Assembly: GCF_000024265.1 (NCBI RefSeq)
Contig: NC_013204.1
Coordinates: 2,158,180 to 2,222,179 of the forward strand
Direction: 5' to 3'
DNA from: Eggerthella lenta DSM 2243
GTDB taxonomy: Bacteria; Actinomycetota; Coriobacteriia; Coriobacteriales; Eggerthellaceae
Length of the DNA: 64,000 bases
Shown here: one piece after another, positions 1,546 through 43,124 of the stretch
How the letters are laid out: each line of letters opens with the position of its first letter
Numbering within the stretch: position 1 is the stretch's first letter
Program-made: the position numbers and the translations under genes
Notes under the pieces: generated by a model
What the model was told of the DNA's origin: nothing
The model's input: the letters and a program-made list of their open reading frames with translations, nothing else
The model's database searches: none

Positions 1546-3021
1546 GTGGTCGGCTTTATGACGCTCCAATCGGCAGCACCGTCGGACCGGAAAACGGGAA
1601 AAGAGGGGTACTTGACGGATCTTGCGACTCGTCCTGCGCTGAAATACGTGGGATTCGCGTTGCTTTTAGCATGGCACTACGCTCTATGGTTCGTCCCGCA
1701 CATGTTCACGCAGACCGAACTGCTGGACGAGCGCGTCACCATCTCCTGGCTGGTGAACTTGGGCGCCACCGTGGTCTCGCTGCTGCTCATCGCGTTCATG
1801 CTGGGGCGCAAACGTCACCTTTCGGCCTACCGTTGGCTCTACGTGGCCGCGCCGGCGCTCACCTGCCTTGCAACGTTGGCGATATGCCTGATTCCTCAAG
1901 TGTTCACGGTGCCCGGCCTCGCCTACGCGCTGTCCTTCTTTCTCGGCATCACCGAATCGGTCATGTGGATCCTCTGGGGCGAGCGCTACGCCTGCGTGAA
2001 GGCGAACTTCACCCTCCGCCACATCGGCACGACGTTCGGGCTGACGCTGCTCGGAACCATCATCCTGGCGTGGGTGCTGCCCTCGTACGTGACGACGGCG
2101 TTCGTCTCACTGCTGCCCATCGCCTCCGGCATGCTGCTGGTGGCCGCTCGCCGCGACGGCTCGCGGGCGTTTCCGGTGCTGTTGCCGAAGAGCGCGGCTC
2201 AGGACGGTCTCAAGAACATGGTCGCGGTGAGCATCATCACCTTCCTGGCCAGCGTCGCGTGCTACTTCCTCGTGGCCATCATCCCCTGGGAGGTGCTGCC
2301 CACCGGAGACGTCAGCTTCACGTTGGGCATCCTCGGAGGGGCGGCCATCATGCTGGGCATCGCCGGCATCAGCATCGCGTCGAAGGACAAGGCCAGCATA
2401 TTCAAGATGTTCCCCTGGCTGCTGGTGCTGCTGATCGCGGCGTTCGCGCTGTTCCTGGCCGACGAGGTGGCGTTCTTCCCCGCCTTCATCATGGCGACCG
2501 GCATCTCGTCGCTGCTGGAAATCCTGCTCATCATGTACTTCGGCATCCTCACCTCGAAAGGCTACGTGACGCCGGCCGTAGCGTTCGCCTTCTCCGGCGC
2601 GTTCGTGCGCGCGGGCATCGCCGTAGGCAATACGTGGGCCGTAGGCTACGAGCACGCCCCCGAGCTGGCCTTCGCCATCACGCCCGAGACGTGCCTGGGG
2701 CTCATGTGCGTGCTGGCCGTGCTGCTGGTGCCGCTGGTGCGCCAGGAGTTCAACATCGTGGCGCTGACGGCCGCGCCGCCCACGAAGGCCGAGATCGACG
2801 AGATCTGCTCCGAGGTGGCCAAGGAGTTCAGCCTGTCGGGGCGCGAGGCCGAGATCCTCGTGCTCATCGCGCGCGGCTACACCACGAACAACATGGCCGA
2901 GAAGCTGGTGATATCGCCGTACACCGTGAACACCCACGTGCGGCACATCTACGAGAAGATGCAGATCCACAAGCGCAGCGAGCTGCTGAACTACCTCAAC
3001 ATGCAGCGCAGCGATTTCTAG
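1546..3021 (+). CDS. LuxR-family regulator with N-terminal 12-TM MFS-like domain
   Basis: This 491-residue protein has about 400 residues of membrane helices followed by a LuxR-type HTH at about 425-490 (LSGREAEILVLIARGYTTNN, then PYTVNTHVRHIYEKM). This membrane-sensor/HTH fusion is characteristic of Eggerthellaceae, where such genes usually sit beside catabolic or respiratory operons. A GTG at 1546 (GGGAG 9 nt upstream) or the ATG at 1558 could be the start; both follow purine-rich ribosome-binding sequence. It is divergent from an MFS carrier and ends in a strong terminator. It probably senses a ligand at the membrane and regulates the adjacent transporter. The ligand is unknown. Confidence 0.85.
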   Translation: MVGFMTLQSAAPSDRKTGKEGYLTDLATRPALKYVGFALLLAWHYALWFVPHMFTQTELLDERVTISWLVNLGATVVSLLLIAFMLGRKRHLSAYRWLYVAAPALTCLATLAICLIPQVFTVPGLAYALSFFLGITESVMWILWGERYACVKANFTLRHIGTTFGLTLLGTIILAWVLPSYVTTAFVSLLPIASGMLLVAARRDGSRAFPVLLPKSAAQDGLKNMVAVSIITFLASVACYFLVAIIPWEVLPTGDVSFTLGILGGAAIMLGIAGISIASKDKASIFKMFPWLLVLLIAAFALFLADEVAFFPAFIMATGISSLLEILLIMYFGILTSKGYVTPAVAFAFSGAFVRAGIAVGNTWAVGYEHAPELAFAITPETCLGLMCVLAVLLVPLVRQEFNIVALTAAPPTKAEIDEICSEVAKEFSLSGREAEILVLIARGYTTNNMAEKLVISPYTVNTHVRHIYEKMQIHKRSELLNYLNMQRSDF

Positions 3022-4941: not shown

Positions 4942-6150
4942 CTAGAGGGCCGTGCCGGCGATCCAATCGCCGTACTCCACGTGGCCGTCGTGCTTGTCCA
5001 CGCCGCGCGCGATGGTGATGCGCTGCACGGTGGGAGCGCCCTCTTCCAACCACATGGCGCGGCAGTCGCGGTACAGGCGCTCGGTCGGGCCGTACGGCGA
5101 ATCCTCGAAGTAGCCGTCGCCGCCGAAGATCTCCAGCATCTCGTCGGACACCATCTTCACCGTGTCGATGGAGAACAGCTTGCACATGGCGGCCTTCTCG
5201 TCGACGAACTCGTTGTGCGGATCCTTGTCGTAGTCGTCGGCGAAGTCCATGACCATGCAGCGCAGTGCGTGGATGTTCGTGGCCATGTTCGCCAGCTTCA
5301 TCTTGATGGCCTGGCGCTGGATGATCGGCTTGCCGAAGGTGACGCGGTCGCGAGCGCGGGCGATGGACATCTCCAGCATGCGCTGGGCCATGCCGAGGTT
5401 CGAGTCGGCGATGTGCACGCGGGAGATGGCGAGCGAGTGCATGGCCACTTCCATGCCCTGGCCCTCCTCGCCCAGCAGGTACTTCGGGTCGAGCACGACG
5501 TCGGTCATCTTGAAGCCGGCGTGGCCCGCGCCGCGGCAGCCCATCATGTGCGGCATGGGAACCAGTTCGAATCCCGGCGTGTCCATGGGCACGAAGAAGG
5601 CGGACAGGCGCTCGTCGCCCTGCTTCTCAGGGTCGGTCACCGCGATGACGTAGGCGTACTGCGAGCAGTCGGTGTGGGAGATGAGCCACTTCTCGCCGTT
5701 GAGCACGTAGTTGCCGTTCTCGTCCTTGAGCGCGGTGGTATGCAGATCGGCGCCGGTGCCGCCCGTCTGCTCGGTCAGCGCGAAGTTCGTGAAGATGGTC
5801 TTGTCCTGGAACTTGTCCATGAACTCGGCCTTGAGCTCCGGCTTGCCGTAGTCGTCGAGGATGCGCCAGTTCAGGTCGGCGGCGTAGTGCAGGTGCATGC
5901 GCATGCCGCCCGGTCCGCGGGAGAACTCCTCCTGCACCTGCAGGATCTCCTTCTCGGACAGGCCCCATCCACCGTACTCCTCGGGCAGCGCGTAGCGGTA
6001 CAGGTTGTTCTCGATGGCCAGGTCGTAGAATTCCTGCGGGAACTTGTTGGTGACCTCCACCTCCTTCTGCATCTCCTCGAACGGACCCTCGGCGAGCGCA
6101 CGCACCGTCTTGAGGTACTCGCGGAACTCCTCTGGGGTAAGCTTGCTCAT
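4942..6150 (-). CDS. Acyl-CoA dehydrogenase family flavoprotein (ACAD1)
   Basis: This 402-residue protein has ACAD family architecture (helical, beta, helical domains). It carries the FAD-contact motif FALTEQTGGTGADL and a C-terminal EEGAPTVQRI in which the Glu occupies the usual catalytic-base position. Such enzymes oxidise acyl-CoA, or run in reverse as enoyl-CoA reductases (CaiA type), with ETF as partner. AAGGAGG precedes the ATG at 6150. It is divergent from ACAD2-etfBA-fixCX, and the two promoters carry mirror-image motif arms, so both are likely co-regulated. The substrate is unknown. Confidence 0.9.
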   Translation of the reverse strand: MSKLTPEEFREYLKTVRALAEGPFEEMQKEVEVTNKFPQEFYDLAIENNLYRYALPEEYGGWGLSEKEILQVQEEFSRGPGGMRMHLHYAADLNWRILDDYGKPELKAEFMDKFQDKTIFTNFALTEQTGGTGADLHTTALKDENGNYVLNGEKWLISHTDCSQYAYVIAVTDPEKQGDERLSAFFVPMDTPGFELVPMPHMMGCRGAGHAGFKMTDVVLDPKYLLGEEGQGMEVAMHSLAISRVHIADSNLGMAQRMLEMSIARARDRVTFGKPIIQRQAIKMKLANMATNIHALRCMVMDFADDYDKDPHNEFVDEKAAMCKLFSIDTVKMVSDEMLEIFGGDGYFEDSPYGPTERLYRDCRAMWLEEGAPTVQRITIARGVDKHDGHVEYGDWIAGTAL

Positions 6151-6233: not shown

Positions 6234-6525
6234 AGTTTGCACCCTAAACGAATATTTTGTCCAATAGGTAATCGATGATGATTCATTTGCCAAAGGATAG
6301 GTTTTGGCTATGGTTCCCCTTCTGCCGTCGATTCCCCCTGGATCAACTGTTTCTTCATCCTGCTGCAATATTGCATATTTTACCAGTTCATACACCCTCT
6401 ATGCCACCAGCATACCAACGGCTTTGTCCGGTTGCATGGCGCTATCGATAGGAGGAACCTATGAATCGGCCGTCGATTCACTGAAAAGAACCTATTGGAC
6501 ACCAACGCGAATATGGGTGCAAACT
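6234..6525. promoter_or_regulatory. Mirror-image bipartite operator arms in divergent ACAD1/ACAD2 promoter region
   Basis: AGTTTGCACCC (6234-6244), a 13-base gap, then TGTCCAATAGGT (6258-6269) form the left arm. The exact reverse complement of both blocks, with the same 13-base gap, forms the right arm: ACCTATTGGACA (6490-6501) and GGGTGCAAACT (6515-6525). The 13-base spacers themselves differ. The 504-base gap 6151-6654 contains no gene. One arm facing each divergent operon suggests one regulator recruited to both promoters. Confidence 0.65.
6442..6462. promoter_or_regulatory. Overlapping palindromes CTATCGATAG and ATAGG-N5-CCTAT
   Basis: CTATCGATAG (6442-6451) overlaps ATAGG-AGGAA-CCTAT (6448-6462), between the two bipartite arms. 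The same two palindromes occur together upstream of the acyl-CoA ligase (20285-20326), suggesting a second shared operator. Confidence 0.45.
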
Positions 6526-6654: not shown

Positions 6655-7809
6655 ATGGATTTCAGCCTGACCGTCGATCAGGAACTGCTGATCGAGAGCA
6701 TCCAGGAATTCGCCGAGAGGTACTTCGACGAGGACACCGTGAACGCCATGTACGAGAACCACGGCATCCCCGACGAGATCGGCGAGGCGTACCGCGACGC
6801 CGGGTTCGCCTTCATGGGCCTGCCCGAGGAATGCGGCGGCATCCCGTGCGACAAGCTCACGCTGGGCCTCATGACCGAAACGCTGTACCACCGCACCGGC
6901 TGCATGACGCCGTTCATGACCGCCATGCTGGCCACGGCCGACGTCGCCGAGTTCGGCACGCCCGAGCAGGTGTCGCTGGTCGTCGACCAGTACAACAAGT
7001 CGGGCAAGCCCATCGCATCGCTCGCGCTTTCCGAGCCGGGCGCGGGCTCCGACAACAAGGCCATGAGCACCTACACGAAGCGCCAAGACGACGGCACCTA
7101 CATCATGAACGGCCAGAAGACCTGGGTCACGAACGGCGGCAACACGCCCTACATGCTGGTGGTGTCCAAGGACGAGCACCCGGCGCACGCCAACGAGAGC
7201 ATGTCGCTGTGGCTCATCCCCACCGACGCGCCCGGCCTGTCCACCGCCCCGCTCGACAAGATCGGCCAGCAGATCATCCCGTTCGTCGACGTGTTCTTCG
7301 ACGAGGTCAGGCTCACCGAGGACATGCGCCTGGGCAAGGAGGGCGAGGGCTTTCTGCTGCTCATGAAGAACTTCGAGATCGAGCGCTGCCTCGTGGCGGC
7401 CCAGTCCCTGGGCCTTGCGCAGGCCTGCATGGACGACGCGGCGGCCTACGCCAACGAGCGCTACGCCTTCGGCAAGCCCATCGGGTGGAACCCCATGATC
7501 CAGGACATGCTTGCCGAGATGGAAACCATCCTGGAGAACTCGCGCAACATGCTGTACAAGACGCTGTGGCAGCTGGATCAGGGAGAATCGGTGCGCACCG
7601 AGGCGGCCCTGCTCAAGCGCTACGCCACGGTGGGCTGCACGAAAGTGGCCGACATGGCGCTGGAGATATTCGCGGCGCTGGGCTACACCACGGCCTCCCG
7701 CGTCGGCCGCATCTGGACCGACCTGCGCGGCAACCAGCTGGCCGGCGGCACCGTGGAGATCATGAGCTACATCGCCGGACGACAGATCCTCAAGCGCTAC
7801 GCGAAGTGA
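6655..7809 (+). CDS. Acyl-CoA dehydrogenase family flavoprotein (ACAD2), first gene of etf/fix operon
   Basis: This 384-residue ACAD has the motif LALSEPGAGSDNKAM at the flavin site. The usual catalytic Glu of the C-terminal YEGT-type motif is absent: the segment reads LAGGTVEIM. An Asp/Glu-Arg pair (FEIERC) is present at the helix-G position where isovaleryl-CoA and long-chain enzymes carry their base. AAGGAG lies 7 nt before the ATG at 6655; longer in-frame extensions are not supported. It leads an operon with etfB, etfA, fixC and fixX, so these are its probable electron partners. It resembles ACAD5 (30339-31523). Confidence 0.9.
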   Translation: MDFSLTVDQELLIESIQEFAERYFDEDTVNAMYENHGIPDEIGEAYRDAGFAFMGLPEECGGIPCDKLTLGLMTETLYHRTGCMTPFMTAMLATADVAEFGTPEQVSLVVDQYNKSGKPIASLALSEPGAGSDNKAMSTYTKRQDDGTYIMNGQKTWVTNGGNTPYMLVVSKDEHPAHANESMSLWLIPTDAPGLSTAPLDKIGQQIIPFVDVFFDEVRLTEDMRLGKEGEGFLLLMKNFEIERCLVAAQSLGLAQACMDDAAAYANERYAFGKPIGWNPMIQDMLAEMETILENSRNMLYKTLWQLDQGESVRTEAALLKRYATVGCTKVADMALEIFAALGYTTASRVGRIWTDLRGNQLAGGTVEIMSYIAGRQILKRYAK

Positions 7810-7858: not shown

Positions 7859-8629
7859 ATGAACATTGCCGTAGCAGTGAAAGTGGTGCCCGACGACCAG
7901 GACATCGCCGTCGCGGCCGACCGCACCCTCGACTACTCCAAGGCCCACCAGGTGGTGAGCGAGTACGACCTCAACGCCATCGAGGCGGCCGCCCTGCTGG
8001 CCGAGGATGCCGGCGCCACCCTGTACGCCGTCAGCGCCAGCAACGCGAAGGCCGACGACCTCAAGGTGAAGAAGAGCATCCTGTCGCGCGGCCCCGCCGA
8101 GCTGTGCATGATCGCCGACGACGCGTTCGCCTTCGCCGACGCCCGCGTGACGGCGCGCGCCCTGGCGACGCTCGTCCGGGGCATCGGCGAGGTCGATCTC
8201 GTGGTGTGCGGCGACGGCTCGGCCGACATGTACGCCGGCCAGGTGGACGTGCAGCTGGCCGCCGAGCTGGGCATGCCGGTGGTCAACGCCGTCACCTCCA
8301 TCAAGCTGGAAGACGGCGTCGCAGTGGTGGAGCGCACGCTTCCCGACGTCGTGGAGGAGATCGAGGTGCCGCTGCCCGCCGTGGTGGCCGTCACGCCCGA
8401 ATGCGCCTACCCGCGCATCGCCGGCATGCGCGAGATCCTCACGGCGGGCAAGAAGCCGGCGACGGTGACCTCGGCCGCCGACGCCGGCGTGGACGTGAGC
8501 GCTGCGGTGGAGATCGCCAGCGTCACGGCCCCCGAGCAGGCCGCGCGCAAGCGCCAGGTGTTCGACATGAAAAACGACGGCGACTTCGACGCGTTCGCGT
8601 CGGCGGTTGCCGCAGCCGTCCGCGCGTAG
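7859..8629 (+). CDS. fixA: Electron transfer flavoprotein beta subunit, FixA type
   Basis: This 256-residue EtfB/FixA protein starts MNIAVAVKVVPDDQDI, has the nucleotide-binding middle segment VVCGDGSADMYAGQVDVQLA and the C-terminal AYPRIAGMREILTA loop. With the next gene it forms the ETF heterodimer that carries electrons between ACADs and the FixCX quinone module. It lies 49 nt after ACAD2. FixAB proteins in the family are either simple ETFs or bifurcating; which applies cannot be decided here. Confidence 0.92.
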   Translation: MNIAVAVKVVPDDQDIAVAADRTLDYSKAHQVVSEYDLNAIEAAALLAEDAGATLYAVSASNAKADDLKVKKSILSRGPAELCMIADDAFAFADARVTARALATLVRGIGEVDLVVCGDGSADMYAGQVDVQLAAELGMPVVNAVTSIKLEDGVAVVERTLPDVVEEIEVPLPAVVAVTPECAYPRIAGMREILTAGKKPATVTSAADAGVDVSAAVEIASVTAPEQAARKRQVFDMKNDGDFDAFASAVAAAVRA

Positions 8630-8656
8630 CCGCAGTACGAAAGAGAGGCATGCATC

Positions 8657-9547
8657 ATGAAAGCATTCGTCATAGCTGAAACCGCCGACGCCCAGAAGGA
8701 GCTGTGCGCCGGGGCGCGCACGCTCGCCGATGAGGTCCTGCTCGTCTCCATCGGCAGCGCGCCCCGCACGGGCGTGGCCGACAAGGCCTACGCCGTGGAG
8801 CTGCCGCAAGGCGAGCTGGTGGAGAACGCCTACGACGCCGTGGCCGCCCTGTACGACGAGGTCGCTCCGAACACGGTGCTGTTCGAGCCCACCCCGCGCC
8901 TCAAGATCGTGGGCGGCCGCCTGGCCGCGCATGCGGACGCGAGTGTGATGTGCGACGTCACCGCGCTCGACGGAGCCGAGGCCGAGAGCCTCTACTTCGG
9001 CGGCCTCGCGACGAAGAGGCAGCGCGCCGTCGGGCCCGTGGCCTTCTACTCCTGCAGCGGCACCGCCTTCGACGGCATCGAGGCCTCGGGCACCGACGTC
9101 GTGGAAGAGCGCGCGTTCGTCGCCCCGCAAAAACCCCTCAAGCTACGCGGCACGCATGAAGTTCCGCACGCGGGCACCGACCTGAGCCGCGCGTCCGTCA
9201 TCGTGGGGGCCGGCCGCGGTTTCGCCCACGAGGAGGACTTGGAGCTGGCGCGCAGCCTGGCCTCGGCCGTCCACGGCGAGCTGGCCTGCTCGCGCCCGCT
9301 CGCGGAGAACGAGAAGTGGCTGCCCAAGAACACCTACCTGGGCGTTTCGGGCCGCATGGTGTCGCCGAAGGTGTACTTCGCCGTCGGCATCTCGGGCCAG
9401 ATGCAGCATATGATAGGCGTGCACAACGCCGATGTCGTCGTAGCCGTGAACAAGGATCAAAACGCGCCGGTGTTCGCCCAGGCAGACTACGGCCTCGTGG
9501 CCGATCTGCACGAAGCGCTGCCGGCCCTCGTCGAGAAGCTCTCCTAA
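8657..9547 (+). CDS. fixB: Electron transfer flavoprotein alpha subunit, FixB type
   Basis: This 296-residue EtfA/FixB protein has the C-terminal FAD domain VGAGRGFAHEEDLELARSLA, then VGISGQMQHMIGVHNADVVV and a NKDQNAPVFAQADYG motif. It pairs with the FixA-like subunit 27 nt upstream. It is clearly different from the second EtfA at 26130, so the window encodes two ETF systems. Confidence 0.93.
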   Translation: MKAFVIAETADAQKELCAGARTLADEVLLVSIGSAPRTGVADKAYAVELPQGELVENAYDAVAALYDEVAPNTVLFEPTPRLKIVGGRLAAHADASVMCDVTALDGAEAESLYFGGLATKRQRAVGPVAFYSCSGTAFDGIEASGTDVVEERAFVAPQKPLKLRGTHEVPHAGTDLSRASVIVGAGRGFAHEEDLELARSLASAVHGELACSRPLAENEKWLPKNTYLGVSGRMVSPKVYFAVGISGQMQHMIGVHNADVVVAVNKDQNAPVFAQADYGLVADLHEALPALVEKLS

Positions 9548-9576
9548 GCGACCCGACCGACTGAAAGGCTGATTCC

Positions 9577-10872
9577 ATGTCCGATGATCAGTTCGACGCG
9601 ATCGTCGTCGGCGCCGGGTGCGCCGGCGCGGTCGCAGCCTACCGGCTGGCCTCCGCGGGCCGTTCCGTTCTCGTAGTGGAACGCGGCAACTACGCCGGCG
9701 CCAAGAACATGACCGGCGGGCGCATCTACACGCATGCGCTCGCCCGCGTGTTCCCCGACTTCGAGGGAAGCGCTCCCCTGCAACGGCGCATCACGCACGA
9801 GAAGATATCGATGGCCGCCCCCGATGCCCTGTTCACCATGGACTTCACGGCCGACGAGCTGCGCGAGTCGGGCAAGGACTCCTACGCGGTGCTGCGCGGA
9901 CCCTTCGACCAGTGGCTGGCCGAGCGGGCCGAGGAGGCGGGAGCCGACTTCATCTACGGCATCGCCGTGGAGGACCTCATCGTGCGCGACGGGCGGGTAT
10001 GCGGCGTCGTCGCAGGCGGCGACGAGGTGGAAGCGCGCATCACCGTCTTGGCAGACGGAGCGAACTCCCTGCTCGCCCAGAAGGCGGGACTCGCCGACGA
10101 CGTCCCCCTTCCCTGCCAGATGGCCGTGGGCGCGAAGGAGACCATCGCGCTTCCGCCGTCGGTCATCGAAGACCGGTTCCTGTGCGCGCCGGGCGAAGGC
10201 GCAGCATGGATGTTCGCCGGCGACTGCACGAAAGGGCGCGTGGGAGGCGGGTTCCTGTACACGAACGACGACTCGATCTCGCTCGGCCTCGTGGCAACGC
10301 TGTCGGATCTGGCCGCGGGCGACGTGCCCATCTACCAGATGCTGGAGGACTTCAAGCAGCGCGCCGACATCGCCCCGCTGGTCAAGGGCGGCGAGCTGGT
10401 GGAGTACTCCGGGCACCTCGTGCCCGAAGGCGGCCTCGCCATGGTTCCGCGCCTGTACGGCGACGGCGTGCTGGTGTGCGGCGACGCGGCCATGCTGTGC
10501 ATGAACCTGGGGTACTCGGTGCGCGGCATGGACTTCGCCGTCAGCTCGGGCGACCTCGCGGCCGACGCCGTCATGCGCGCGCTCGAGGCCGACGACGTGT
10601 CGGCCGCGCAGCTGGCCGCCTACGAGCAGCTGCTCGACGGCTGCTACGTCCTGCAGGACCTCAAGCGCTTCCGCCGCTTCCCGCGCTATATGGAAGAGAC
10701 GACGCGCATCTTCAACGAGTACCCGGCCATGGCCCGCGACATCATGCTCAACCTGTTCAAGGTGGACGGGCATCCTCAGGCGCGCATCAAAGACAAACTT
10801 CTGGGCCCGCTCAAGCGCGTGGGGCTGTGGCGGGTGGCGCAGGACGGCAGGAAGGGGATGAAGGCCTTATGA
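9577..10872 (+). CDS. fixC: FAD-dependent ETF:quinone oxidoreductase-like protein, FixC
   Basis: This 431-residue protein has an N-terminal dinucleotide fold (DAIVVGAGCAGAVAAYRLAS), the family segment ERGNYAGAKNMTGGRIY, and a second FAD contact VCGDAAMLCMNLGYSVRG. FixC with FixX corresponds to the ETF-quinone oxidoreductase of mitochondria split into two genes. It moves electrons between FixAB and the menaquinone pool at the membrane. Its stop overlaps the fixX start (ATGA), so translation is coupled. Confidence 0.92.
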   Translation: MSDDQFDAIVVGAGCAGAVAAYRLASAGRSVLVVERGNYAGAKNMTGGRIYTHALARVFPDFEGSAPLQRRITHEKISMAAPDALFTMDFTADELRESGKDSYAVLRGPFDQWLAERAEEAGADFIYGIAVEDLIVRDGRVCGVVAGGDEVEARITVLADGANSLLAQKAGLADDVPLPCQMAVGAKETIALPPSVIEDRFLCAPGEGAAWMFAGDCTKGRVGGGFLYTNDDSISLGLVATLSDLAAGDVPIYQMLEDFKQRADIAPLVKGGELVEYSGHLVPEGGLAMVPRLYGDGVLVCGDAAMLCMNLGYSVRGMDFAVSSGDLAADAVMRALEADDVSAAQLAAYEQLLDGCYVLQDLKRFRRFPRYMEETTRIFNEYPAMARDIMLNLFKVDGHPQARIKDKLLGPLKRVGLWRVAQDGRKGMKAL

Positions 10873-11316: not shown

Positions 11317-12243
11317 ATGAACCTTTCGCAGCTGTACTACTTCCGCAAGCTCGCAGAGCTGCAGCATTACGCCAAGGCAGCGAAAGAGCTCTACATCACG
11401 CAGCCTTCCCTGTCGAACGCCATCAGCTCGCTCGAACAGGAGCTGGGCGTGTCGCTGTTCCAGAAGACGGGACGCAACATCCATCTCACGAAGTACGGCG
11501 CCGAGTTCCTCGCCTACGTGAACAAGGGCCTCGAGCAGATAGACAAGGGCATCGCCATCATGAAGAACTACGCCGGCACGGGCGACGGCGGCAAGATCGA
11601 CCTCGGCTGCATCATCACCGTGCAGACCGACTTCATCCCCAAGCTGCTCAACGGCTACAAGGCCGCTGCCGGAGGCGTCGCGTTCAACGTGCGCGAGGAC
11701 ACCTCGATACCCCTCGTGAAGGATCTGCTGAGCGGCTGCTACGACGTGGTGTTCTGCGCCAAGGGCAACGAGGATCCCGACCTCGCCTACGTGCCCGTGC
11801 TCACGCAGAAGGTGGTCGTGGCCATGAGCTCCGATTGCCCGCTGGTGGAGAAAGAGTTCGTCACCCCGACCGACCTGCTGGAGCAGCACCTCATCACGTA
11901 CGTCGACACCATCCCGCTGGGACGCGCCGTCAGGCGTATGCTCGACGAGTGCGGCATCAAGAACGTGGAGTACAGCTACCTCGACGAGTCCATCCTGGCC
12001 GGATTCGCGGCCAACGGCGTGGAGGCGGCCGTCATGCTGGACACCTTCCTGCTGCGCAGCGTGGACGACGTGGTGGTGAGGCCCTTCTACCCGAGCGCCC
12101 TCGATCGGCGCAGCTGCCACCACCGCGTGTACATGGCCTACAGCACGAAGAACTACCACCCGTACCGCGTCGACCACTTCATCCAGCACGTCATCGAGAC
12201 GAAGGCGCTCAAGCCCGATCCGAACGCCTGCTACATCGACTGA
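11317..12243 (+). CDS. LysR-family transcriptional regulator (LysR1)
   Basis: This 308-residue protein has an N-terminal winged HTH (LSQLYYFRKLAELQHYAKAA, then QPSLSNAISSLEQELGVSLF) and a C-terminal effector-binding domain. The start at 11317 matches the family N-terminus. It is closely related to LysR2 (12845-13792), including the same opening MNLSQLYYF and the QP-LS--ISSLE-ELGV helix. It follows the etf/fix operon and precedes an unknown Cys-rich gene, so it may regulate either. The effector is unknown. Confidence 0.9.
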   Translation: MNLSQLYYFRKLAELQHYAKAAKELYITQPSLSNAISSLEQELGVSLFQKTGRNIHLTKYGAEFLAYVNKGLEQIDKGIAIMKNYAGTGDGGKIDLGCIITVQTDFIPKLLNGYKAAAGGVAFNVREDTSIPLVKDLLSGCYDVVFCAKGNEDPDLAYVPVLTQKVVVAMSSDCPLVEKEFVTPTDLLEQHLITYVDTIPLGRAVRRMLDECGIKNVEYSYLDESILAGFAANGVEAAVMLDTFLLRSVDDVVVRPFYPSALDRRSCHHRVYMAYSTKNYHPYRVDHFIQHVIETKALKPDPNACYID

Positions 12244-12267: not shown

Positions 12268-12855
12268 ATGGCAGCCGCAGACCCCGCCGCCTTAAGCCCC
12301 ACGCGCACGCGCGCCACCTGGAAGCCCGGCGTGTCAGACGAGCCGCTGCCCTTCTACGGCTGCGACGGATGCTCGGCGGCGTTCATCGGCATCGACGGCG
12401 GCGAGGGCCCGCGGCTCTCGGGCGGCGGGAGGCGGCCCACCATCGAGCTGCCCTACGCACCGGCGCCCGATCCTGCCGCTTGCGGCGGTTTCCTCGAGCG
12501 CCTCCCGGCGGCCAGCGCTGCGGACTGCGCCGATTCGATCGAACTTTCCTACGACGTGGTGGGAGGCTTCGACGCGAACGCGCTCAGGGTGTTCTGGAAG
12601 GTGCGCGAAGCCGGCTGCGAACCGCGCTGGTTCGCGCTCAAGGCGTTCACGGGAATGCAGCTGAAGTACGTGCTGCCAGGCAAGCGGGCGCCTATCGTGT
12701 TCGCGCTGGGCGACGAGGACGCTTACGCCTACTGCGACGAGGATCCCTGCGTCGGCTGCACGTTCCGCTGCAAGCGCGGCTTCGAGCTGTACGCCTACGT
12801 CGAAAAGATCGGGCTCGTCGCGCAGAGCGTGCACCGCGAGGCCGTCACGCGCTAA
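12268..12855 (+). CDS. Hypothetical Cys-rich protein between two LysR genes
   Basis: I do not recognise this 195-residue protein. It has an N-terminal CDGC motif (about residues 32-35) and a Cys cluster near the C-terminus (CDEDPCVGCTFRCKRG, about 155-170), which could bind metal or an Fe-S cluster. No signal peptide or membrane helix is seen. TTTGGAGG lies 6 nt before the ATG. It follows LysR1 by 24 nt, so it may be co-transcribed, and its last 11 bases overlap the end of LysR2 on the other strand. Composition and codon use match its neighbours. Confidence 0.75.
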   Translation: MAAADPAALSPTRTRATWKPGVSDEPLPFYGCDGCSAAFIGIDGGEGPRLSGGGRRPTIELPYAPAPDPAACGGFLERLPAASAADCADSIELSYDVVGGFDANALRVFWKVREAGCEPRWFALKAFTGMQLKYVLPGKRAPIVFALGDEDAYAYCDEDPCVGCTFRCKRGFELYAYVEKIGLVAQSVHREAVTR

Positions 12856-13792
12856 GCGACACCCCCTCCGCCCGATCAGGCCGGAAACCCAGGTCGATCC
12901 CAGCGCCTTCGGCGTCGAATCCCTTCACGAAGTCGATGAACGACTGCACGGCCGCGGTCTTGGCGTGCTTCGCGTTGACGGCCAGGTACACCCAGTAGAA
13001 GTCGGGGCGCACGCCCTCGAGCGGCACCGTCGTTATGTTCGAGAACACCTTGAGGCCGATGGAGTTCAGCATGAGCGCGGCCAAGCCGCCGTCCACCGAC
13101 AGGGCGGACGCCATGGTGATGTCGTCGTCGTAGAGCGCCTCGACGCCCTCGAGCGGGCTCTGCTCCAAGATGCGCTGCACCGCCTCCCCGATGGGAGTGC
13201 CCCGCCGGTACGTGATCAGGCGCTGGCCGCACAGCTCTTCCAGCGCGATCGAAGAGCGGCCCGCCAGCGGATGGTCCGCGCGCACGCCCAGCTCCAAACT
13301 GCGGTTCAGCACGGGGAAGTACTCGATGTCGGGCTCGCGGTCGCGCCGTCCGCAGAAGGCGACGTCGAGCGTCTCGTTGTGCAGGCTCTGCGTGAGGTAG
13401 TTCGTGAACGCCTGGTACGTCTCGATGCGAACCTCGTCGCCGACGTGCTCGCGATAGGCTTTGAGCAGCGTGGGCAGGTAGTCGTCCTGCACGGTGAACG
13501 TAGCGCCCAGGCTCACGGTGCCGCCCAGCTGCGTTTTTCGGCGGTTCATCGCGTCGATGCCGTCGTCGAGGGAGCGCAGGCTGTCGCTCACGTAGCGGTA
13601 GAACTCGCTGCCGTTCGACGTCAGCTTGACGCTGCGCCCATCGCGGCAGAACAGCGCGACGCCCAGCTCCTTCTCCAGCGAGCTGATCGCGTCGGAGAGC
13701 GTCGGCTGGGCGATGTAGAGCTCTTTCGCCGCGCGCGTGTAGTGCTGCAGCTCGGCGAGCTTCTTGAAGTAGTAGAGCTGGGACAGGTTCAT
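12845..13792 (-). CDS. LysR-family transcriptional regulator (LysR2)
   Basis: This 315-residue LysR has HTH segment QPTLSDAISSLEKELGVALF and an effector domain of normal length. It is a paralogue of LysR1 and converges on the Cys-rich gene with an 11-base overlap. The MFS gene on the same strand lies 107 nt upstream, behind a hairpin. The two paralogues facing each other around one small gene suggest duplication within this locus. Target and effector are unknown. Confidence 0.9.
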   Translation of the reverse strand: MNLSQLYYFKKLAELQHYTRAAKELYIAQPTLSDAISSLEKELGVALFCRDGRSVKLTSNGSEFYRYVSDSLRSLDDGIDAMNRRKTQLGGTVSLGATFTVQDDYLPTLLKAYREHVGDEVRIETYQAFTNYLTQSLHNETLDVAFCGRRDREPDIEYFPVLNRSLELGVRADHPLAGRSSIALEELCGQRLITYRRGTPIGEAVQRILEQSPLEGVEALYDDDITMASALSVDGGLAALMLNSIGLKVFSNITTVPLEGVRPDFYWVYLAVNAKHAKTAAVQSFIDFVKGFDAEGAGIDLGFRPDRAEGVSLSA

Positions 13793-16642: not shown

Positions 16643-16802
16643 GTGGTGCCTTCTTTCCTCCGAAACGCCCCAGCGCCCGCGTGCGTTCCCGCAGACCCTG
16701 CAGCGCTGCAATCAGGGATTACTTGTTACCAGTATACTGAGACAGCCCTACCGCATCACCCCCAAATCGGCCGAATTAACCAAAAGCATGGACGGAACCG
16801 TC

Positions 16803-16840
16803 GATTTGCACCCACACTGCCCGGCATATGGCCAACAAAT
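16803..16840 (+). promoter_or_regulatory. Third, degenerate copy of the bipartite motif, upstream of CoA-transferase
   Basis: GATTTGCACCC (16803-16813), a 15-base gap, then TGGCCAACAAAT (16829-16840), matches the two arms at 6234-6525 in order and near-identical spacing (10/11 and 8/12 positions). The 348-base gap 16643-16990 has no gene. A TTGTCCATGG also lies at about 16907-16916. Confidence 0.5.
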
Positions 16841-16990
16841 CGGTGAACCTGTGAGTGAAACCCTCTGGGCATGACAAAAATAGTGAGCGACCATCAAGTA
16901 TAAATAATTGTCCATGGCAACAAATATTAGAGTATGTGAGTATAACGACAGGAGAAAACCACCCACCATAAAGGAAAGGAGAACCGTCGT

Positions 16991-19097: not shown

Positions 19098-19976
19098 TTA
19101 CAGGTTGTGGAACTGGTACTTCTCCGGGTTGTCCTTCACGTCCTGCTTGTTCTTCGGGTTCATCTTGCCGACGCCCATCTGACCGTCGTTCGTGTTGGAG
19201 GCCAGAACCTGGTTGCGGTTCTCCATCTTGACGACGTTCTCGAAGCTGGTGCCGTCGAGGGAGGCCTGCAGGCACTCCTTCGTGAGGCGCAGACCGAACG
19301 GGGCGGTGGCGTCGCACATCTGCTGAGCGAATGCCACGGCCTCTTCGACCACGTCGTCGTCGGCGACAACCTTGTTGGCGAAGCCCCACTCCAGCAGCTT
19401 CTCGGCACCGAAGCGGTTGGGGTTCATGAGGATCTCGCAGGCGCGGGCGTAGCCGACGATCTTCGGCAGGAAGAACGCGCCGCCCATGTCGGTGCCGGTG
19501 TAGCCGATGGACAGGTAGCCGGCGTTCATCTTGAACGACTCGCCCAGCACGCGCATGTCGCACGCGCAGGAGATGGACAGGCCGCCGCCCACGGCGTAGC
19601 CCTTGAGGGCGCCGATGATGGGCTGCTCGCAACGGCGCATGTTGATGATCTGGTCGGAGCACATGCGCTGCATGATGTAGAAGTCGCGCTGGATGCGGCC
19701 CATGTCCTCGGGCGGATCGAGCGCCAGGTCGTTCAGGTTGAAGCCGGCGCAGAAGGACTTGCCCTCGCCCGTCAGCACGATGACGCGGCAATCCTTGTCC
19801 ATGCGCACCTTGATGAGGAAGTCGTTGAACTCGGCCATCTGGGCGTACGACATGGCGTTGAGGTTCGCGGCATCGTTGAAGCTGCACACGTACACCGGGC
19901 CGCGACGGTCGATGATGAGCTTCTCATAGTCGTACTCGAACTCCGGCAGATGGTAATCCTCTTGATACACGCTCAT
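19098..19976 (-). CDS. Enoyl-CoA hydratase/isomerase family protein
   Basis: This 292-residue crotonase-fold protein has the oxyanion-hole segments KSFCAGFNLNDLA and KGYAVGGGLSISCACDMRV and the signature TDMGGAFFLPKIVG. It hydrates or isomerises an enoyl-CoA (the family includes CaiD-like dehydratases). The ATG at 19976 is preferred over the GTG at 19982 because AAGGGG sits 8 nt before it. It is divergent from the acyl-CoA ligase across a 580-base regulatory gap. The substrate is unknown. Confidence 0.9.
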   Translation of the reverse strand: MSVYQEDYHLPEFEYDYEKLIIDRRGPVYVCSFNDAANLNAMSYAQMAEFNDFLIKVRMDKDCRVIVLTGEGKSFCAGFNLNDLALDPPEDMGRIQRDFYIMQRMCSDQIINMRRCEQPIIGALKGYAVGGGLSISCACDMRVLGESFKMNAGYLSIGYTGTDMGGAFFLPKIVGYARACEILMNPNRFGAEKLLEWGFANKVVADDDVVEEAVAFAQQMCDATAPFGLRLTKECLQASLDGTSFENVVKMENRNQVLASNTNDGQMGVGKMNPKNKQDVKDNPEKYQFHNL

Positions 19977-20556
19977 TGGCACTACCCCTTTCCCTGTGGT
20001 TTCATATCATTCGCTTCTTAGGCGCCGCGTCGGGGACGAGCGCTCGGCGAGGCCGTGTTCACGACCCTTCTTTATGATCGCCCCAACAACGCGATTAATC
20101 TACGGACAATAGACTGATACTGTCTAAGATATGAAATGCTCAGCCAACATATCCTTAATTTTGTCCTATTAATTGCAGAAAACGGGAACGAGAACCTTTG
20201 AGACTCATGTTCCGATCAAAAAGATAACCTCATCCAGTCCTGCGCTGTCCATAATGAAATATATTCTATGATCAGGCTTTTTTTCTATCGATAGACTTTG
20301 GCTATCGACGCATAGGAAGTTCCTATCGGTATACCCACAAATACCGATCATCGACCATCATCTTCGGGTTTACAATAAATGGCACGAACCACGACGTGCG
20401 AGCATAGAGCATGTCGCCCGGCGCATCGCGTCAACGCGCTGAGCCGGACACGAGGGGGCCCGTCGAAGCGGGCAGCAGATCGAGTTCATGCGGAACATCC
20501 GGCGGGGGACGTCGGGTGAGAGAAGCGAGCTGTCATCAAGAGAGGACTCAGGGGCG
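19977..20556. promoter_or_regulatory. AT-rich divergent control region (hydratase/ligase) with paired palindromes
   Basis: This 580-base gap has no gene. It carries CTATCGATAG (20285-20294) and ATAGG-AAGTT-CCTAT (20312-20326), the same palindrome pair as at 6442-6462. TTGTCC hexamers occur on both strands (20104-20109 minus, 20161-20166 plus). It is markedly more AT-rich than its surroundings, as expected for control regions of this genome. Confidence 0.5.
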
Positions 20557-22188
20557 ATGATTACCGATCTCAAAATCAATGCGGAGAGAAAGCAATTCTA
20601 CTACGAGAAAGGATACTGGACCGAGAAGACCCTCGGCGACGTATGGGCCGACCGCGTCGCCTCCCATCCGGAGCGCACGTACGTCAGCGACGACCAGGGA
20701 TCGTCCTACACGTACGGCGAGATAGACGACAAGGCGGCGCGCCTGGCAGCATGGCTCGTCGAGCAAGGGGTGGCCCCCGGGGACGTGGTCACGTTCCAAA
20801 TGCCTACGTGGGCGGAGTTCTGCATCGTCTATGTGGCAGCCCTCAAGGCCGGCGCGGTCATGCACCCTCTTCCGCGCAACTTCAACGACGCCGACCTCGT
20901 CTACGGCATGAACCTCGTGGGCTCGAGGGCGTTCATCTGCCCCACCAAAGTGGCGAAGGTCGACTTCGAGAGCCAGATTTTGAGCATCGTCGACCAGATA
21001 CCGACGCTGGGACCTGTGGCGCTCGTGGACAAGGCGGCGCCGAAGCACTCCGAGCTGCCCACGGTCGCGGAGATATGCGCGCGCTATGAGCCAATTGAAT
21101 ACCCCCCCCCCATCACGTCTGACGACGTAGCCTGCATCCTGTCCACGTCCGGCACCACGGGCAAGCCCAAAGCGGTGCTGTTCACGCATAACAACCTCAT
21201 CTTCTCCGAGCGGTCGTTCGTAAAGGGTACCGAGCGAACGGCGGACGACGTCATGTTCATGGCATCCCCGCTCAACCACGCCACCGGGTTCTTCCACGGC
21301 CTCATCTCCCCCATGATCCTGGGCGGGCGCACGGTGCTGCAGCAGGACTTCCGTCCCGCGCAAGCCATCGAGCAGATGAACCGCGAGGGCTGCACCTGGT
21401 CGATGGGTGCGACGCCGTTCATCTACGACATGCTCAAGTGCATCGAGTTCGAGGACGGCCCGCGGTTCGAAACACTGCAGCTGTTCCTCTGCGGCGGCGC
21501 ACCGGTGCCCGGCAACCTCGTGCAGTGCGCGCACGGCCACGGGGTCATGCTCGCCGAGATATACGGGTCGACGGAAAGCTGCCCCCACATCTTCGTGCCC
21601 CCCGCGAAATGCCTCGAATGGAACGGAGCCTGGTCGGGCATCCCCTTCCCCGGCATCGAGGTGCGCATCGTGGACGGCGACCGCAACGACGTGCCGCGCG
21701 GCGAGCAGGGCGAGGAGATCTCGCGCGGGCCGCACCAGTTCGTGGGCTACCTCAACGCCAAGGAGCGCACCGATCGCGCGCTCGACGACGACGGCTGGTT
21801 CTACAGCGGCGACCTCGGCTACATGGACGAAGAGGGGCGCATCCGCATCAACGGGCGCAAGAAGGAGATCATCATCCGCGGCGGCGAGAACATCTGCGCG
21901 CGCGAGATCGACGACGATCTGATGGGGTGCCCCGGCGTGGGCGAGACGGCCACCATCGGCATGCCCGACGAGCGCCTGGGCGAGCGCATCTGCACCTTCG
22001 CGGTGCCCGTCGACGAGCGTCGCCCCACCGTGGAGGACGTGACGGCCTACCTGGCCGAGAAGCACGTGGCCAAGCGCCTGTGGCCCGAGCGCATGGAGTA
22101 CATCGACGAGATCCCGAAGACGGCCACCGGCAAGGTGAAGCGCTTCGAGCTGGCCAAGGAGCTGGCGAAGCGCATGGAGAACGAGTAG
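20557..22188 (+). CDS. AMP-forming acyl-CoA synthetase (FadD/CaiC-like)
   Basis: This 543-residue ANL-family ligase activates a carboxylate as acyl-AMP and then acyl-CoA. Motifs are the P-loop STSGTTGKPKAVLFTH, the adenylate-binding YGSTES, the hinge YSGDLGYMDEEGRIRINGRK, and the C-terminal catalytic Lys in PKTATGKVKR. The ATG at 20557 is chosen because the family N-terminus starts there and GGGG precedes it. A C10 tract (21102-21111) lies inside the gene and encodes three Pro codons; a one-base slip would frameshift the protein at about residue 185. It is probably the entry enzyme of the island. The substrate is unknown. Confidence 0.92.
   Translation: MITDLKINAERKQFYYEKGYWTEKTLGDVWADRVASHPERTYVSDDQGSSYTYGEIDDKAARLAAWLVEQGVAPGDVVTFQMPTWAEFCIVYVAALKAGAVMHPLPRNFNDADLVYGMNLVGSRAFICPTKVAKVDFESQILSIVDQIPTLGPVALVDKAAPKHSELPTVAEICARYEPIEYPPPITSDDVACILSTSGTTGKPKAVLFTHNNLIFSERSFVKGTERTADDVMFMASPLNHATGFFHGLISPMILGGRTVLQQDFRPAQAIEQMNREGCTWSMGATPFIYDMLKCIEFEDGPRFETLQLFLCGGAPVPGNLVQCAHGHGVMLAEIYGSTESCPHIFVPPAKCLEWNGAWSGIPFPGIEVRIVDGDRNDVPRGEQGEEISRGPHQFVGYLNAKERTDRALDDDGWFYSGDLGYMDEEGRIRINGRKKEIIIRGGENICAREIDDDLMGCPGVGETATIGMPDERLGERICTFAVPVDERRPTVEDVTAYLAEKHVAKRLWPERMEYIDEIPKTATGKVKRFELAKELAKRMENE
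21102..21111 (+). repeat. In-frame C10 homopolymer inside acyl-CoA ligase gene
   Basis: Ten consecutive C residues occur within the coding sequence. Proline could be encoded without such a run, and tracts of this length are prone to slipped-strand mispairing. Confidence 0.8.
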
Positions 22189-27987: not shown

Positions 27988-29127
27988 CTAGTATTCCTTC
28001 AGCACCGATTTCGCGATAAGCGAGCGCTGCACCTGGCTCGTGCCCTCGACGATGGTGAACGACTTCGCGTCGCGGTAGTAGCGCTCCACCGGATAATCCT
28101 TGCACAGGCCGTAGCCGCCGAATATCTGCACGGCCGTCTCAGCCGCTTTCACCGCCGCCTCCGAGCAGTACACCTTCGCCACCGACGCCGTCTTCATCAT
28201 CGTCTGGATGTCGCCGCCGAACGCCGATGCCGCCTGGTCCAACAGCAAGCGGGACGCTTCCAGCGTGATCTCCATATCGGCCAGCATGAAGCGGATGGCC
28301 TGCAAGTCCGCGATATGCTTTCCGAACTGGATGCGCTCCTTCGCATAGGCGGCCGCGGCCGCGAGCGAGGCGGCCGTCACGCCGGTGGCCAGCGCCGCCA
28401 CGGCCAAGCGGCCGCGGTTCAGCGTGTGGTGCGCGATGGCGAACCCGTCGCCCACCTCGCCCACCACGGCTTCGGGTCCCACGTGCATGTTCTCGAAGTA
28501 CAGCTGGGAGGTCACTGAGCCGCGCAAGCCCATCTTGTCCTCCTTGCGGCCGATCACGAGGCCGGGCGTGTAGCGGTGCACGATGAAGCACGACGGCTTC
28601 GACTGCCCGTCCTCCACCACGCGCGCGAACACGGTGAACCAGTCGCCCACCGCTCCGTTCGTGATGAATATCTTGCCGCCGTTGATGGTGTAGCCATCGC
28701 CGTCGGGCAACGCCGTCGTGGAGATGGCGGAGATGTCCGAGCCGGCGTTCGGCTCGGTCAGCGCGAAGCAGATCTTCGCCTCGCCAGCCGCCAGCGCGGG
28801 AAGGATGGCACGTTGCTGCTCGGCGGATCCCGAGAACACGAGCGCGTCGGACCCGATGGCCGATATGAGGATCATGAGCGCCACGGCCGGCGATTCGCGC
28901 GCGATGCGCTCGATCACCTGCACCCAGCAGTGCATGCTCACTTCCACGCCGCCGTGCTCCTCGCCGTAGGCGAGCGCGAACAGCCCCTGCTCCACGAACA
29001 GCTCGTAGATGTCCTGGGGAAACTCGTCCTCTTCGTCGATGGCAGCCGCACGCTCGGCCACCACGTCGACGCACAGGTCGTCCACCATAGAAAGGATCAT
29101 GCGTTCCTCTTGCGTCAGCTCGTACAT
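27988..29127 (-). CDS. Acyl-CoA dehydrogenase (ACAD4), first gene of ETF2 operon
   Basis: This 379-residue ACAD is the most canonical of the five. It has FALTEPNAGSDISAIST at the flavin site, the C-terminal IVEGTSQVQRSLIAKSVL with catalytic-type Glu, and the family signature QIFGGYGLCKDYPVER. The order ACAD4-etfB2-etfA2-Fe-S protein suggests a short-chain acyl-CoA dehydrogenase directly coupled to menaquinone. AAGGGG precedes the ATG at 29127. The exact chain length preference cannot be read. Confidence 0.92.
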   Translation of the reverse strand: MYELTQEERMILSMVDDLCVDVVAERAAAIDEEDEFPQDIYELFVEQGLFALAYGEEHGGVEVSMHCWVQVIERIARESPAVALMILISAIGSDALVFSGSAEQQRAILPALAAGEAKICFALTEPNAGSDISAISTTALPDGDGYTINGGKIFITNGAVGDWFTVFARVVEDGQSKPSCFIVHRYTPGLVIGRKEDKMGLRGSVTSQLYFENMHVGPEAVVGEVGDGFAIAHHTLNRGRLAVAALATGVTAASLAAAAAYAKERIQFGKHIADLQAIRFMLADMEITLEASRLLLDQAASAFGGDIQTMMKTASVAKVYCSEAAVKAAETAVQIFGGYGLCKDYPVERYYRDAKSFTIVEGTSQVQRSLIAKSVLKEY

Positions 29128-29450
29128 GCAGCCCCTTCCCCGCGCGAAACGGCCGCCGCACCCGGAAGGGGCGGCGATCCATTCCTATTTCCTATTGATT
29201 CCCCTTTAAATAATAGGTTCCGTCTATCGCTTGCCTACGGTCAAAACGACCTCCCTGGGCATATAGACTGGTCAAACGAGTTTGTTTGTTGGCCTTCATG
29301 TCATCCAACTCGTCGATTTCGCAAGAACTCGACGGTTCATCACACCTGCGGAATTCAAAACCGCACACTCGCGGCAAAATAGCCGGTCAATCCGCGCCGA
29401 CGCTGCTCTATGATCTTTACAGCAAGAAACCCCGCGCGAAGGAGCATCCC
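29128..29450. other. Divergent intergenic region ACAD4/MetH-activation-like gene
   Basis: These 323 bases contain no gene. CCTATT (29182-29187 region) and AATAGG (about 29209) form a spaced inverted pair around an AT-rich stretch. No clear copy of the TTTGCACCC half-site is seen. Confidence 0.4.
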
Positions 29451-42191: not shown

Positions 42192-43124
42192 CTACTTCTT
42201 CCCCTTGAGGGCGGAGGCTATGTCGCCTGTGAAGCCCTGGGCGTAGGGGCTCGGCACCACCACCATGTTGCCGCCCTCCTTCACGCTCTCGTTCACGAGG
42301 CTCATCATGCGCAGCTGCAGCGCCAGGTCGTCCTCGCGGTAGGCATGCGCGGCCTCGATGAACATGTCGGAGATGTCCTTCTCAACCTCGGCCAGCACGA
42401 CGCGGGCGTTGCGCTCCTGCTGCGCCTGGGCCTCGGCGCTCATGGCGTTCTGCAGCTCCTGGGGCATGCGGATGTCGCGGATCTCCACGTCGTTGATGGT
42501 GACGCCCCACTGCTCAGTCTTCTCCTCGATGCTCTTCTTCAGTTGGTGGTCGATATGCGCGCGCTGCATGGACAGCTCGGCGATCTCCACCTGGCCGATG
42601 GCGTCGCGCAGCGCCGTCTGCGCCACGAGCGACGCCGAGTGCTCGTAGTCTTCCACAGCCAGGCACGCCTTCTTCGGATCCCACACCATCCAGAACACGA
42701 CGGCGTCGAGATCCACCGGCACGAGATCGGCCGTGAGCACCTGCTCGGCCGAACACGAGATGGACGAGATGCGCTGGTCGATGACGATGGTCACCGAATC
42801 CACCACGGGGACGGTGACGTACAGACCCGGCCCGGCGAGGCGGTGGAACCGGCCGAAGCGCAGCACCACAGCACGCTCCCATTCGTAGGCGATGTGCACG
42901 CTGCCTGCCAGCGCCAGGCCGGCGACCACGGCGAGCGCCACGGTGAACGCCGAGCGGAAGGGGAACGTCGCAGCCAGGACAAGGGCGAACGCAACGAGGA
43001 ACAGCGTCACGGCCAGCACCACCGCACCGCGGCGCGATGCCTTGCGCCTGCCGGAGACGCTCTCCTCCCCGCCTGACAGCACGTCGTTCGCACGCTCGTT
43101 GCCGCGTTTGCCGAACTTGACCAT
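42192..43124 (-). CDS. SPFH/Band 7 family membrane protein (slipin-like)
   Basis: This 310-residue protein has two N-terminal hydrophobic segments (about 32-80) followed by an SPFH domain (YEWERAVVLRFGRFHRLAGP, and TINDVEIRDIRMPQELQNAM) and a short coiled segment. Such proteins scaffold membrane microdomains. AGGAGC precedes the ATG at 43124. It lies 9 nt after a GntR-type regulator, with which it forms an operon. Confidence 0.88.
   Translation of the reverse strand: MVKFGKRGNERANDVLSGGEESVSGRRKASRRGAVVLAVTLFLVAFALVLAATFPFRSAFTVALAVVAGLALAGSVHIAYEWERAVVLRFGRFHRLAGPGLYVTVPVVDSVTIVIDQRISSISCSAEQVLTADLVPVDLDAVVFWMVWDPKKACLAVEDYEHSASLVAQTALRDAIGQVEIAELSMQRAHIDHQLKKSIEEKTEQWGVTINDVEIRDIRMPQELQNAMSAEAQAQQERNARVVLAEVEKDISDMFIEAAHAYREDDLALQLRMMSLVNESVKEGGNMVVVPSPYAQGFTGDIASALKGKK

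Follow-up and report, generated by a model that had tools for sequence, protein, structure and literature searches.

What is the function of two mirror-image sequence blocks that lie between a pair of divergent acyl-CoA dehydrogenase (ACAD) genes in Eggerthella lenta DSM 2243? The blocks fall within a 64,000-nucleotide stretch of the genome, analysed here as a whole (the window), and an earlier reading of the sequence alone (the sequence-only reading) took them for a bipartite operator shared by three promoters, possibly bound by a membrane LuxR or by one of the LysR proteins encoded in the window. Comparison with related genomes leads us to a different division of the same bases. With a probability of roughly 0.7, region 6234–6525 would be a back-to-back promoter pair under LysR-type control, the most likely regulator being LysR1, encoded downstream in the rightward gene cluster (Table 1).

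Table 1. Positions in the window of the genes, predicted promoter parts and candidate regulatory sites discussed in the text
Feature	Position	Strand	Remark
ACAD_L, acyl-CoA dehydrogenase	4942..6150	−	Proposed target; Pfam PF00441, PF02770, PF02771
Predicted −10, CAAACT	6234..6239	−	Leftward promoter, of ACAD_L
Predicted −35, TGGACA	6258..6263	−	Leftward promoter; spacer 18
CTAT half-site	6264..6267	−	Leftward; abuts the −35; possible activation half-site
LTTR-type dyad ATAG-N7-CTAT (T-N11-A)	6297..6311		Leftward; centre ~−77 from predicted start
Central conserved element ATATTTTACCAGTTCAT (~TATATWWTACCWGWTCA)	6375..6391		About midway between the two dyads
LTTR-type dyad ATAG-N7-CTAT	6448..6462		Rightward promoter; centre ~−77 from predicted start
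CTAT half-site	6492..6495	+	Rightward; abuts the −35
Predicted −35, TGGACA	6496..6501	+	Rightward promoter, of ACAD_R and the genes after it
Predicted −10, CAAACT	6520..6525	+	Rightward promoter; spacer 18
ACAD_R, acyl-CoA dehydrogenase	6655..7809	+	Proposed target
FixA, FixB, FixC	7859..10872	+	Homologs adjoin ACAD_R in relatives
LysR1, LysR-type regulator	11317..12243	+	Proposed dyad binder; Pfam HTH_1, LysR_substrate
LysR2, sister LTTR	12845..13792	−	Alternative or additional binder; Pfam HTH_1, LysR_substrate
Crotonase	19098..19982	−	
First tandem dyad ATAG-N7-CTAT	20291..20305		Crotonase/CoA-ligase intergenic region; centre ~−85
Second tandem dyad ATAG-N7-CTAT	20312..20326		21 bp after the first; centre ~−64
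Predicted −10, TACAAT	20371..20376	+	CoA-ligase promoter; kept in 4/4 Eggerthella
CoA ligase	20557..22188	+	

The mirrored blocks are rare and conserved

The sequence AGTTTGCACCC-N13-TGTCCAATAGGT lies at 6234–6269 (+) and again at 6490–6525 (−), with 13 bases between its halves in both copies and spacer sequences that differ, in agreement with the sequence-only reading. A relaxed form of the pattern, TTTGCACCC-N10-18-TGKCCAAYA, had three matches in the window against none in 100 dinucleotide shuffles, and in the whole 3,632,260-bp genome there were again three, all of them sites picked out by that reading, with none for the backwards control. The conservation that it had anticipated in relatives was also found, as six of the 138 family genomes, from 2 of 48 genera, have the inverted pair, in each case at a start-to-start distance of 256–260 bp. 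The mirrored sites are real and conserved, and are no product of chance. Both blocks are directed outward, towards ACAD_L and ACAD_R, and in that direction each reads CCTATTGGACA-N13-GGGTGCAAACT, i.e. CTAT-TGGACA-N18-CAAACT.

Probable core promoters within the blocks

Divided in this way, each block is probably a −35/−10 core promoter with a CTAT half-site set against the −35, and the position of CTAT directly against TGGACA is conserved. In the ACAD_L/ACAD_R divergons of g4 (genera and genomes carry our own labels, g and G, respectively), CCTATTGGAC is kept and GGGTGCAAA is lost, with TAAACT, CAAACT or TAGAAT standing 17–19 bp from TGGAC[AT]. The ACAD_L promoter of g2 (G003, G005) has CTATTGGAC followed by CAAACT at a spacer of 18, with GGGTG absent, and the corresponding place is occupied by CACACT in g31 and CAGAAT in g26. 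A pattern allowing substitutions placed CATACT and CATAAT at the matching position after AATTGGA in upstream regions of g37/g41. Across genera, the −10-like hexamers comprise CAAACT, CAAAAT, TAAACT, TAGAAT, CACACT and CAGAAT; the listed half-promoters give a consensus of TGGAC[ATG] for the −35 and [CT]A[AGC]A[AC]T for the −10, and the observed spacing of 17–19 bp, which is 18 in 16 of the 20 listed half-promoters, fits the 16–19 bp of housekeeping-type promoters. Part of the agreement with the −10 consensus follows from the script that listed these hexamers, which took only those with A in the second and T in the sixth position, and CAAACT itself agrees with that consensus at three of six positions.

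All 12 half-promoters of Eggerthella and g24 have GGGTG unchanged; it is lost in g4, g2, g26 and g31, where a −10-like hexamer is retained 17–19 bp from TGGAC. Because the hexamers stay in these four genera when GGGTG goes, we reject, as the main reading, an operator formed by the bipartite block on its own. What stands of the claimed shared regulatory site is thus the promoter pair, which would answer to a shared regulator; the bipartite block itself would be a core promoter plus a half-site. Alternatively, GGGTGCAAA could be a separate operator over the promoter, used by a repressor or a second activator, beside an upstream LysR-type (LTTR) site. The invariance of GGGTG in all 12 Eggerthella/g24 half-promoters exceeds the needs of a spacer, as such an operator would predict, but GGGTG is missing from promoters of g4, g2, g26 and g31 in which both the −35 and the upstream dyad are kept, an absence qualified by a GGGGTG near the leftward promoter of G014. 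On balance, we regard a second operator at this position as distinctly improbable.

A LysR-type dyad upstream of each promoter

Upstream of the blocks lies a motif that the sequence-only reading had missed and that is, from its form and conservation, the likelier operator. ATAG-N7-CTAT, a perfect dyad of the T-N11-A form, is present in all 12 half-promoters of six genomes (Eggerthella, g24), where its position relative to CTATTGGACA is −44 or −43. T-N11-A dyads are a signature of LTTR sites, and this form is present in every one of the 12. The classic primary site of an LTTR is centred near −65. Measured from predicted start sites, the dyads are centred at ~−77 in the divergon, about one helical turn further upstream, and at ~−85 and ~−64 before the CoA-ligase gene.

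Joined to the promoter as ATAG-N7-CTAT-N27-31-TATTGGAC (hereafter the element), the dyad was found at 19 places in 12 of 396 genomes of the class (5 of 153 genera), with none for the backwards control. All 19 places are directed at a homolog of ACAD_L or ACAD_R, the matched start of which lies 73–154 bp downstream, and they include two g2 genomes and one genome of another family (G357) that were outside the set used to define the pattern. Among 30 regions upstream of ACAD_L, 14 carry the element at no more than two changes in CTATTGGAC, two more (g31) carry ATCG-N7-CTAT and 14 are without the element. The exact element thus stands upstream of an ACAD gene in five genera, and a form with small changes in two more (g26, g31). 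A loose scan of the family for CTAT-N-CTATTGG gave largely noise, with hits no more frequent than in the backwards control, but it led to the g4 pairs.

The two dyads of the divergon are 151 bp apart in all four Eggerthella genomes, where the intervening DNA is 54–78% identical, and 155 and 153 bp apart in g24 and 209 and 186 bp apart in two g4 genomes (G015 was left out). As this distance varies between genera, DNA looping with a fixed helical phase is unsupported. The central conserved element could be aligned in the six Eggerthella/g24 genomes (the window and L004–L008), and no alignment was obtained for G014 and G016; it may be an additional promoter or site. Coriobacteriia MAGs with ACAD_R-FixABC (L019–L022) had neither the element nor a LysR1 match in the stretches fetched. 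By eye, these MAGs have a TATAAT-type promoter instead, which agrees with the model and is no proof of it. About 60–90 bp upstream of ACAD_R, also by eye, they share a promoter-like block, TGAACCTGYTATAAT, resembling the reverse complement of the central element.

Further dyads and the claimed third copy

ATAG-N7-CTAT alone occurs nine times in the 3.63-Mb genome, against 16 times for the backwards control, and six of the nine fall within the 64-kb window (binomial P ~2e-9, rising to 3e-6 when the two sites that defined the pattern are left out and to 1e-4 when the tandem is treated as a single site). Given a count below that of the control, it is the clustering of the dyads that is unusual and not their number. 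On visual inspection, four of the nine (genome positions 322861, 392279 and 2077895, and window position 43123) seem to fall inside coding sequence or at its edge.

Two of the clustered dyads stand in tandem between the crotonase and CoA-ligase genes in all four Eggerthella genomes, and by its motifs this region (20291–20326) would be a better third target than 16803–16840, which had been proposed as a third copy of the bipartite block upstream of the CoA-transferase gene. The string is indeed present there with a 15-base spacer, but among the four aligned Eggerthella genomes TTTGCACCC occurs in two (G000, G054) and TGGCCAACAAA in four, and the intergenic region that holds the copy has no ATAG-N7-CTAT. 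With one half confined to two of four genomes and the dyad absent, we do not count this copy as the same element. The ACAD3/CoA-transferase intergenic region contains two other blocks, at 16715–16743 (GGGATTACTTGTTACCAGTATACTGAGAC) and 16891–16915 (CCATCAAGTATAAATAATTGTCCAT), that show no or almost no differences among the four Eggerthella genomes, and these offer a better start than the 16803 copy for understanding the control of that promoter. Elsewhere in the window, a dyad at 29213–29227 lies ~86 bp upstream of another ACAD ORF (27988–29127, −). Slightly to the right of this dyad is TTTGTTGGCC, a string also present at 16830–16839 on the reverse strand.

Target genes and candidate regulators

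The proposed targets are acyl-CoA dehydrogenases of no closer assignment by NCBIfam: ACAD_L has no model above its cut-off, the models nearest to ACAD_R (PRK12341 and crotonobetainyl-CoA dehydrogenase) both fall below theirs, and for ten window proteins none of the NCBIfam matches listed (the best 25 for four proteins) reaches its cut-off. The three translations that follow ACAD_R we take to be FixA, FixB and FixC, an electron-transfer flavoprotein and its oxidoreductase. The LysR1 gene follows the Fix genes and shares their strand, and gene order and strand suggest that it is co-transcribed with them. Most LTTR genes are divergent from and adjacent to their target, an arrangement that is not required and that the LysR1 gene does not show.

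A LysR protein was the better of the two binders suggested by the sequence-only reading, as LysR1 is linked to the divergon. Matches to LysR1 at E<=1e-80 were found in 10 of 138 family genomes, nine of which have the element at the divergon. In eight of these genomes (G000, G052, G053, G054, G061, G062, G015, G016) the gene and the divergon share one fetched region, and the two are probably linked in the ninth (G014), where the gene lies on a contig that fits that of the divergon (two contigs). In G108, LysR1 and ACAD_L are on different contigs, and the element is absent upstream of ACAD_L. The 32–33 kb around the divergon in G061 and G062 contain, as the only homologs of window genes, ACAD_L, ACAD_R, FixA, FixB and LysR1, together with a weak second LysR match in G061; the same set plus FixC is found in G015 and G016, and in G014 on two contigs. 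Among 20 hand-picked genomes, 15 have an LTTR that matches LysR1 at E<=1e-40. The element or a near variant is present in 10 of these 15 and absent from the other five (G083, G088, G101, G102, G108), and none of the five genomes that lack such an LTTR has either form.

Genus g2 shows a different association. The element is present in all four of its genomes with ACAD_L (G002, G003, G005, G006), in two of them with two changes, and a match to LysR1 at E<=1e-80 is missing from all four; the binder there may therefore be LysR2 or some other regulator. The binder could more generally be LysR2, or LysR1 and LysR2 could share the dyads and so cross-regulate, a variant of the main reading whose probability is not exclusive of it. 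The two regulators have DNA-binding domains that are 73% identical over the first 62 residues, and the element carriers of g2 and g31 (in g31 with one dyad base changed), which have no LysR1 at E<=1e-80, match LysR2 at 53–68% identity (53–56% in g2, 68% in g31) elsewhere in the genome; in G065, a LysR2-like gene (44%) is in the same cluster as ACAD_L. However, the best LysR2 matches besides LysR1 are only 42–43% identical in G061, G062 and G015, the sole LysR2 match at E<=1e-60 in G014 and G016 is LysR1 itself, and the neighbourhood of LysR2 in the window (MFS, ACAD3, CoA-transferase) has no ATAG-N7-CTAT, whereas LysR1 is linked to the divergon. We consider this variant unlikely. Each of the 16 element-bearing genomes compared has a LysR1- or LysR2-type match, a count of limited value because such paralogs are frequent in the family.

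The membrane LuxR of the window (1546–3021), which has a GerE domain, was the other suggested binder, and would act through the mirrored element. Its orthologs lie 2–13 kb from ACAD_L in all four Eggerthella genomes and ~15 kb from it in G002, G003 and G006; a LuxR homolog (71–73%) is directly upstream of ACAD_L in G065 (L152: 7863–9323, 9758–10942); and the available part of a study of E. lenta describes membrane LuxRs in control of neighbouring catechol dehydroxylase genes (PMC9734109). Yet of the 16 genomes in which the element or a near variant occurs, four gave no match at E<=1e-70: G014 and G015 (80–81% complete) and G005 and G016 (99% complete). Furthermore, the LuxR gene is unlinked in G061 (on another contig) and in G062 (~685 kb away), it is missing from the fetched divergon regions of G061, G062, G014, G015 and G016, and the dyad has the T-N11-A form of LTTR sites, which argues against LuxR binding. 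Absent or unlinked in several element-bearing genomes, though linked in others, the membrane LuxR is very unlikely to be the binder. Orthologs of LuxR and LysR2 adjoin each other in two genomes (G075:C12, G076:C3).

The regulator gene linked to the element is thus LysR1 in some genomes, a membrane LuxR in another, and TetR-type in others, with LysR2 located elsewhere in the genome; the TetR-type gene lies directly upstream of ACAD_L in G003 and G005, with the element between both genes, and was assigned by Pfam in G005 and by its similar sequence in G003. We tentatively raise the possibility that the promoter outlasted its regulator, read either by an LTTR subfamily with a common DNA code or by different regulator classes acting on a fixed promoter.

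A proposed model of LysR1 control

Our preferred reading, control by LysR1, suggests the following mechanism. From the centre outward, each half of the region would consist of the dyad (centre ~−77), 28 bp, a C-CTAT that abuts the −35 TGGACA and, after a spacer of 18 bp, the −10 CAAACT. A LysR1 tetramer would anchor on the dyad. Once an inducer is bound, perhaps a substrate or CoA intermediate of the pathway, the second dimer of the tetramer would contact the CTAT half-site beside the −35, a contact that would recruit RNA polymerase to weak core promoters. The outcome would be expression of both acyl-CoA dehydrogenases and of the electron-transfer flavoprotein genes, perhaps of LysR1 itself, with the crotonase/CoA-ligase region as a second LysR1 target. 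Within this scheme, the sequence elements with their conservation, their spacing and their linkage to LysR1 are observed, and we infer binding, activation, transcription starts, LysR1 co-transcription and the inducer.

Such a model puts in place of a matching string a concrete regulon that can be tested, one that serves a CoA-dependent pathway of a gut bacterium and is specified by regulator, operator bases and promoters, and the inducer of LysR1, if found, would indicate the substrate of the gene cluster. It also warns that −35/−10 hexamers, and not an operator, can lie behind blocks that are conserved while their spacers vary freely, and illustrates that comparison across genera separates the two.

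Comparison with known systems

A search of titles and the beginnings of abstracts, with most subscription-journal papers and all bioRxiv preprints outside its scope, found no publication on this locus. Related regulators in the same organism group are the 12-TM LuxR proteins DadR, CadR and HcdR of E. lenta, as described in PMC9734109, where the role of one LysR, DadS, is left open. A GerE-domain LuxR occurs in the window and in the wider clusters of several relatives, but, as noted above, four of the 16 genomes that carry the element or a near variant have no match to this LuxR at E<=1e-70.

The dyad itself has a close parallel in OxyR at oxyR-oxyS of E. coli, for which the accessible text of PMC5002191 gives predicted 15-bp dyads of ATAG-n7-CTAT, as here, with centres at −66, −44 and −35, unlike those of the dyads described here. 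With 77.5 bits under the OxyR model PRK11151.1 (cut-off 329), LysR1 is not filed as OxyR. Against the NCBIfam model of BenM it scores 66 bits (cut-off 600), and the 41 solved-structure matches to LysR1 include BenM entries, the best match being 3fzv, a probable regulator. The BenM/CatM site, ATAC-N7-GTAT, is also an N7 dyad with T-N11-A, and differs in its arms (ATAC/GTAT against ATAG/CTAT here) and in the spacing of its boxes, which is 21 bp at ben compared with 32–33 bp from CTAT to CTAT here.

Activation by LTTRs is described in the available part of PMC4834489 as a tetramer on a primary site, a second contact near the −35 and an inducer-dependent change. The closest precedent in that text is ThnR, at the promoters PB and PC of tetralin degradation, two close divergent promoters as in our locus, each with a primary site of its own and, at the promoter, a secondary one; sequences aside, this is the layout predicted here. 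Primary site C of ThnR is centred at −75, against ~−77 from predicted starts here, and ThnR is also made from one of the operons that it activates, much as LysR1 is encoded within the rightward cluster. ThnR controls several promoters, as proposed here for LysR1; its need for the co-activator ThnY and its looping between sites are, in the same source, features of ThnR. The divergent ACAD promoter of E. lenta would thus be another case of a known, LTTR-controlled kind.
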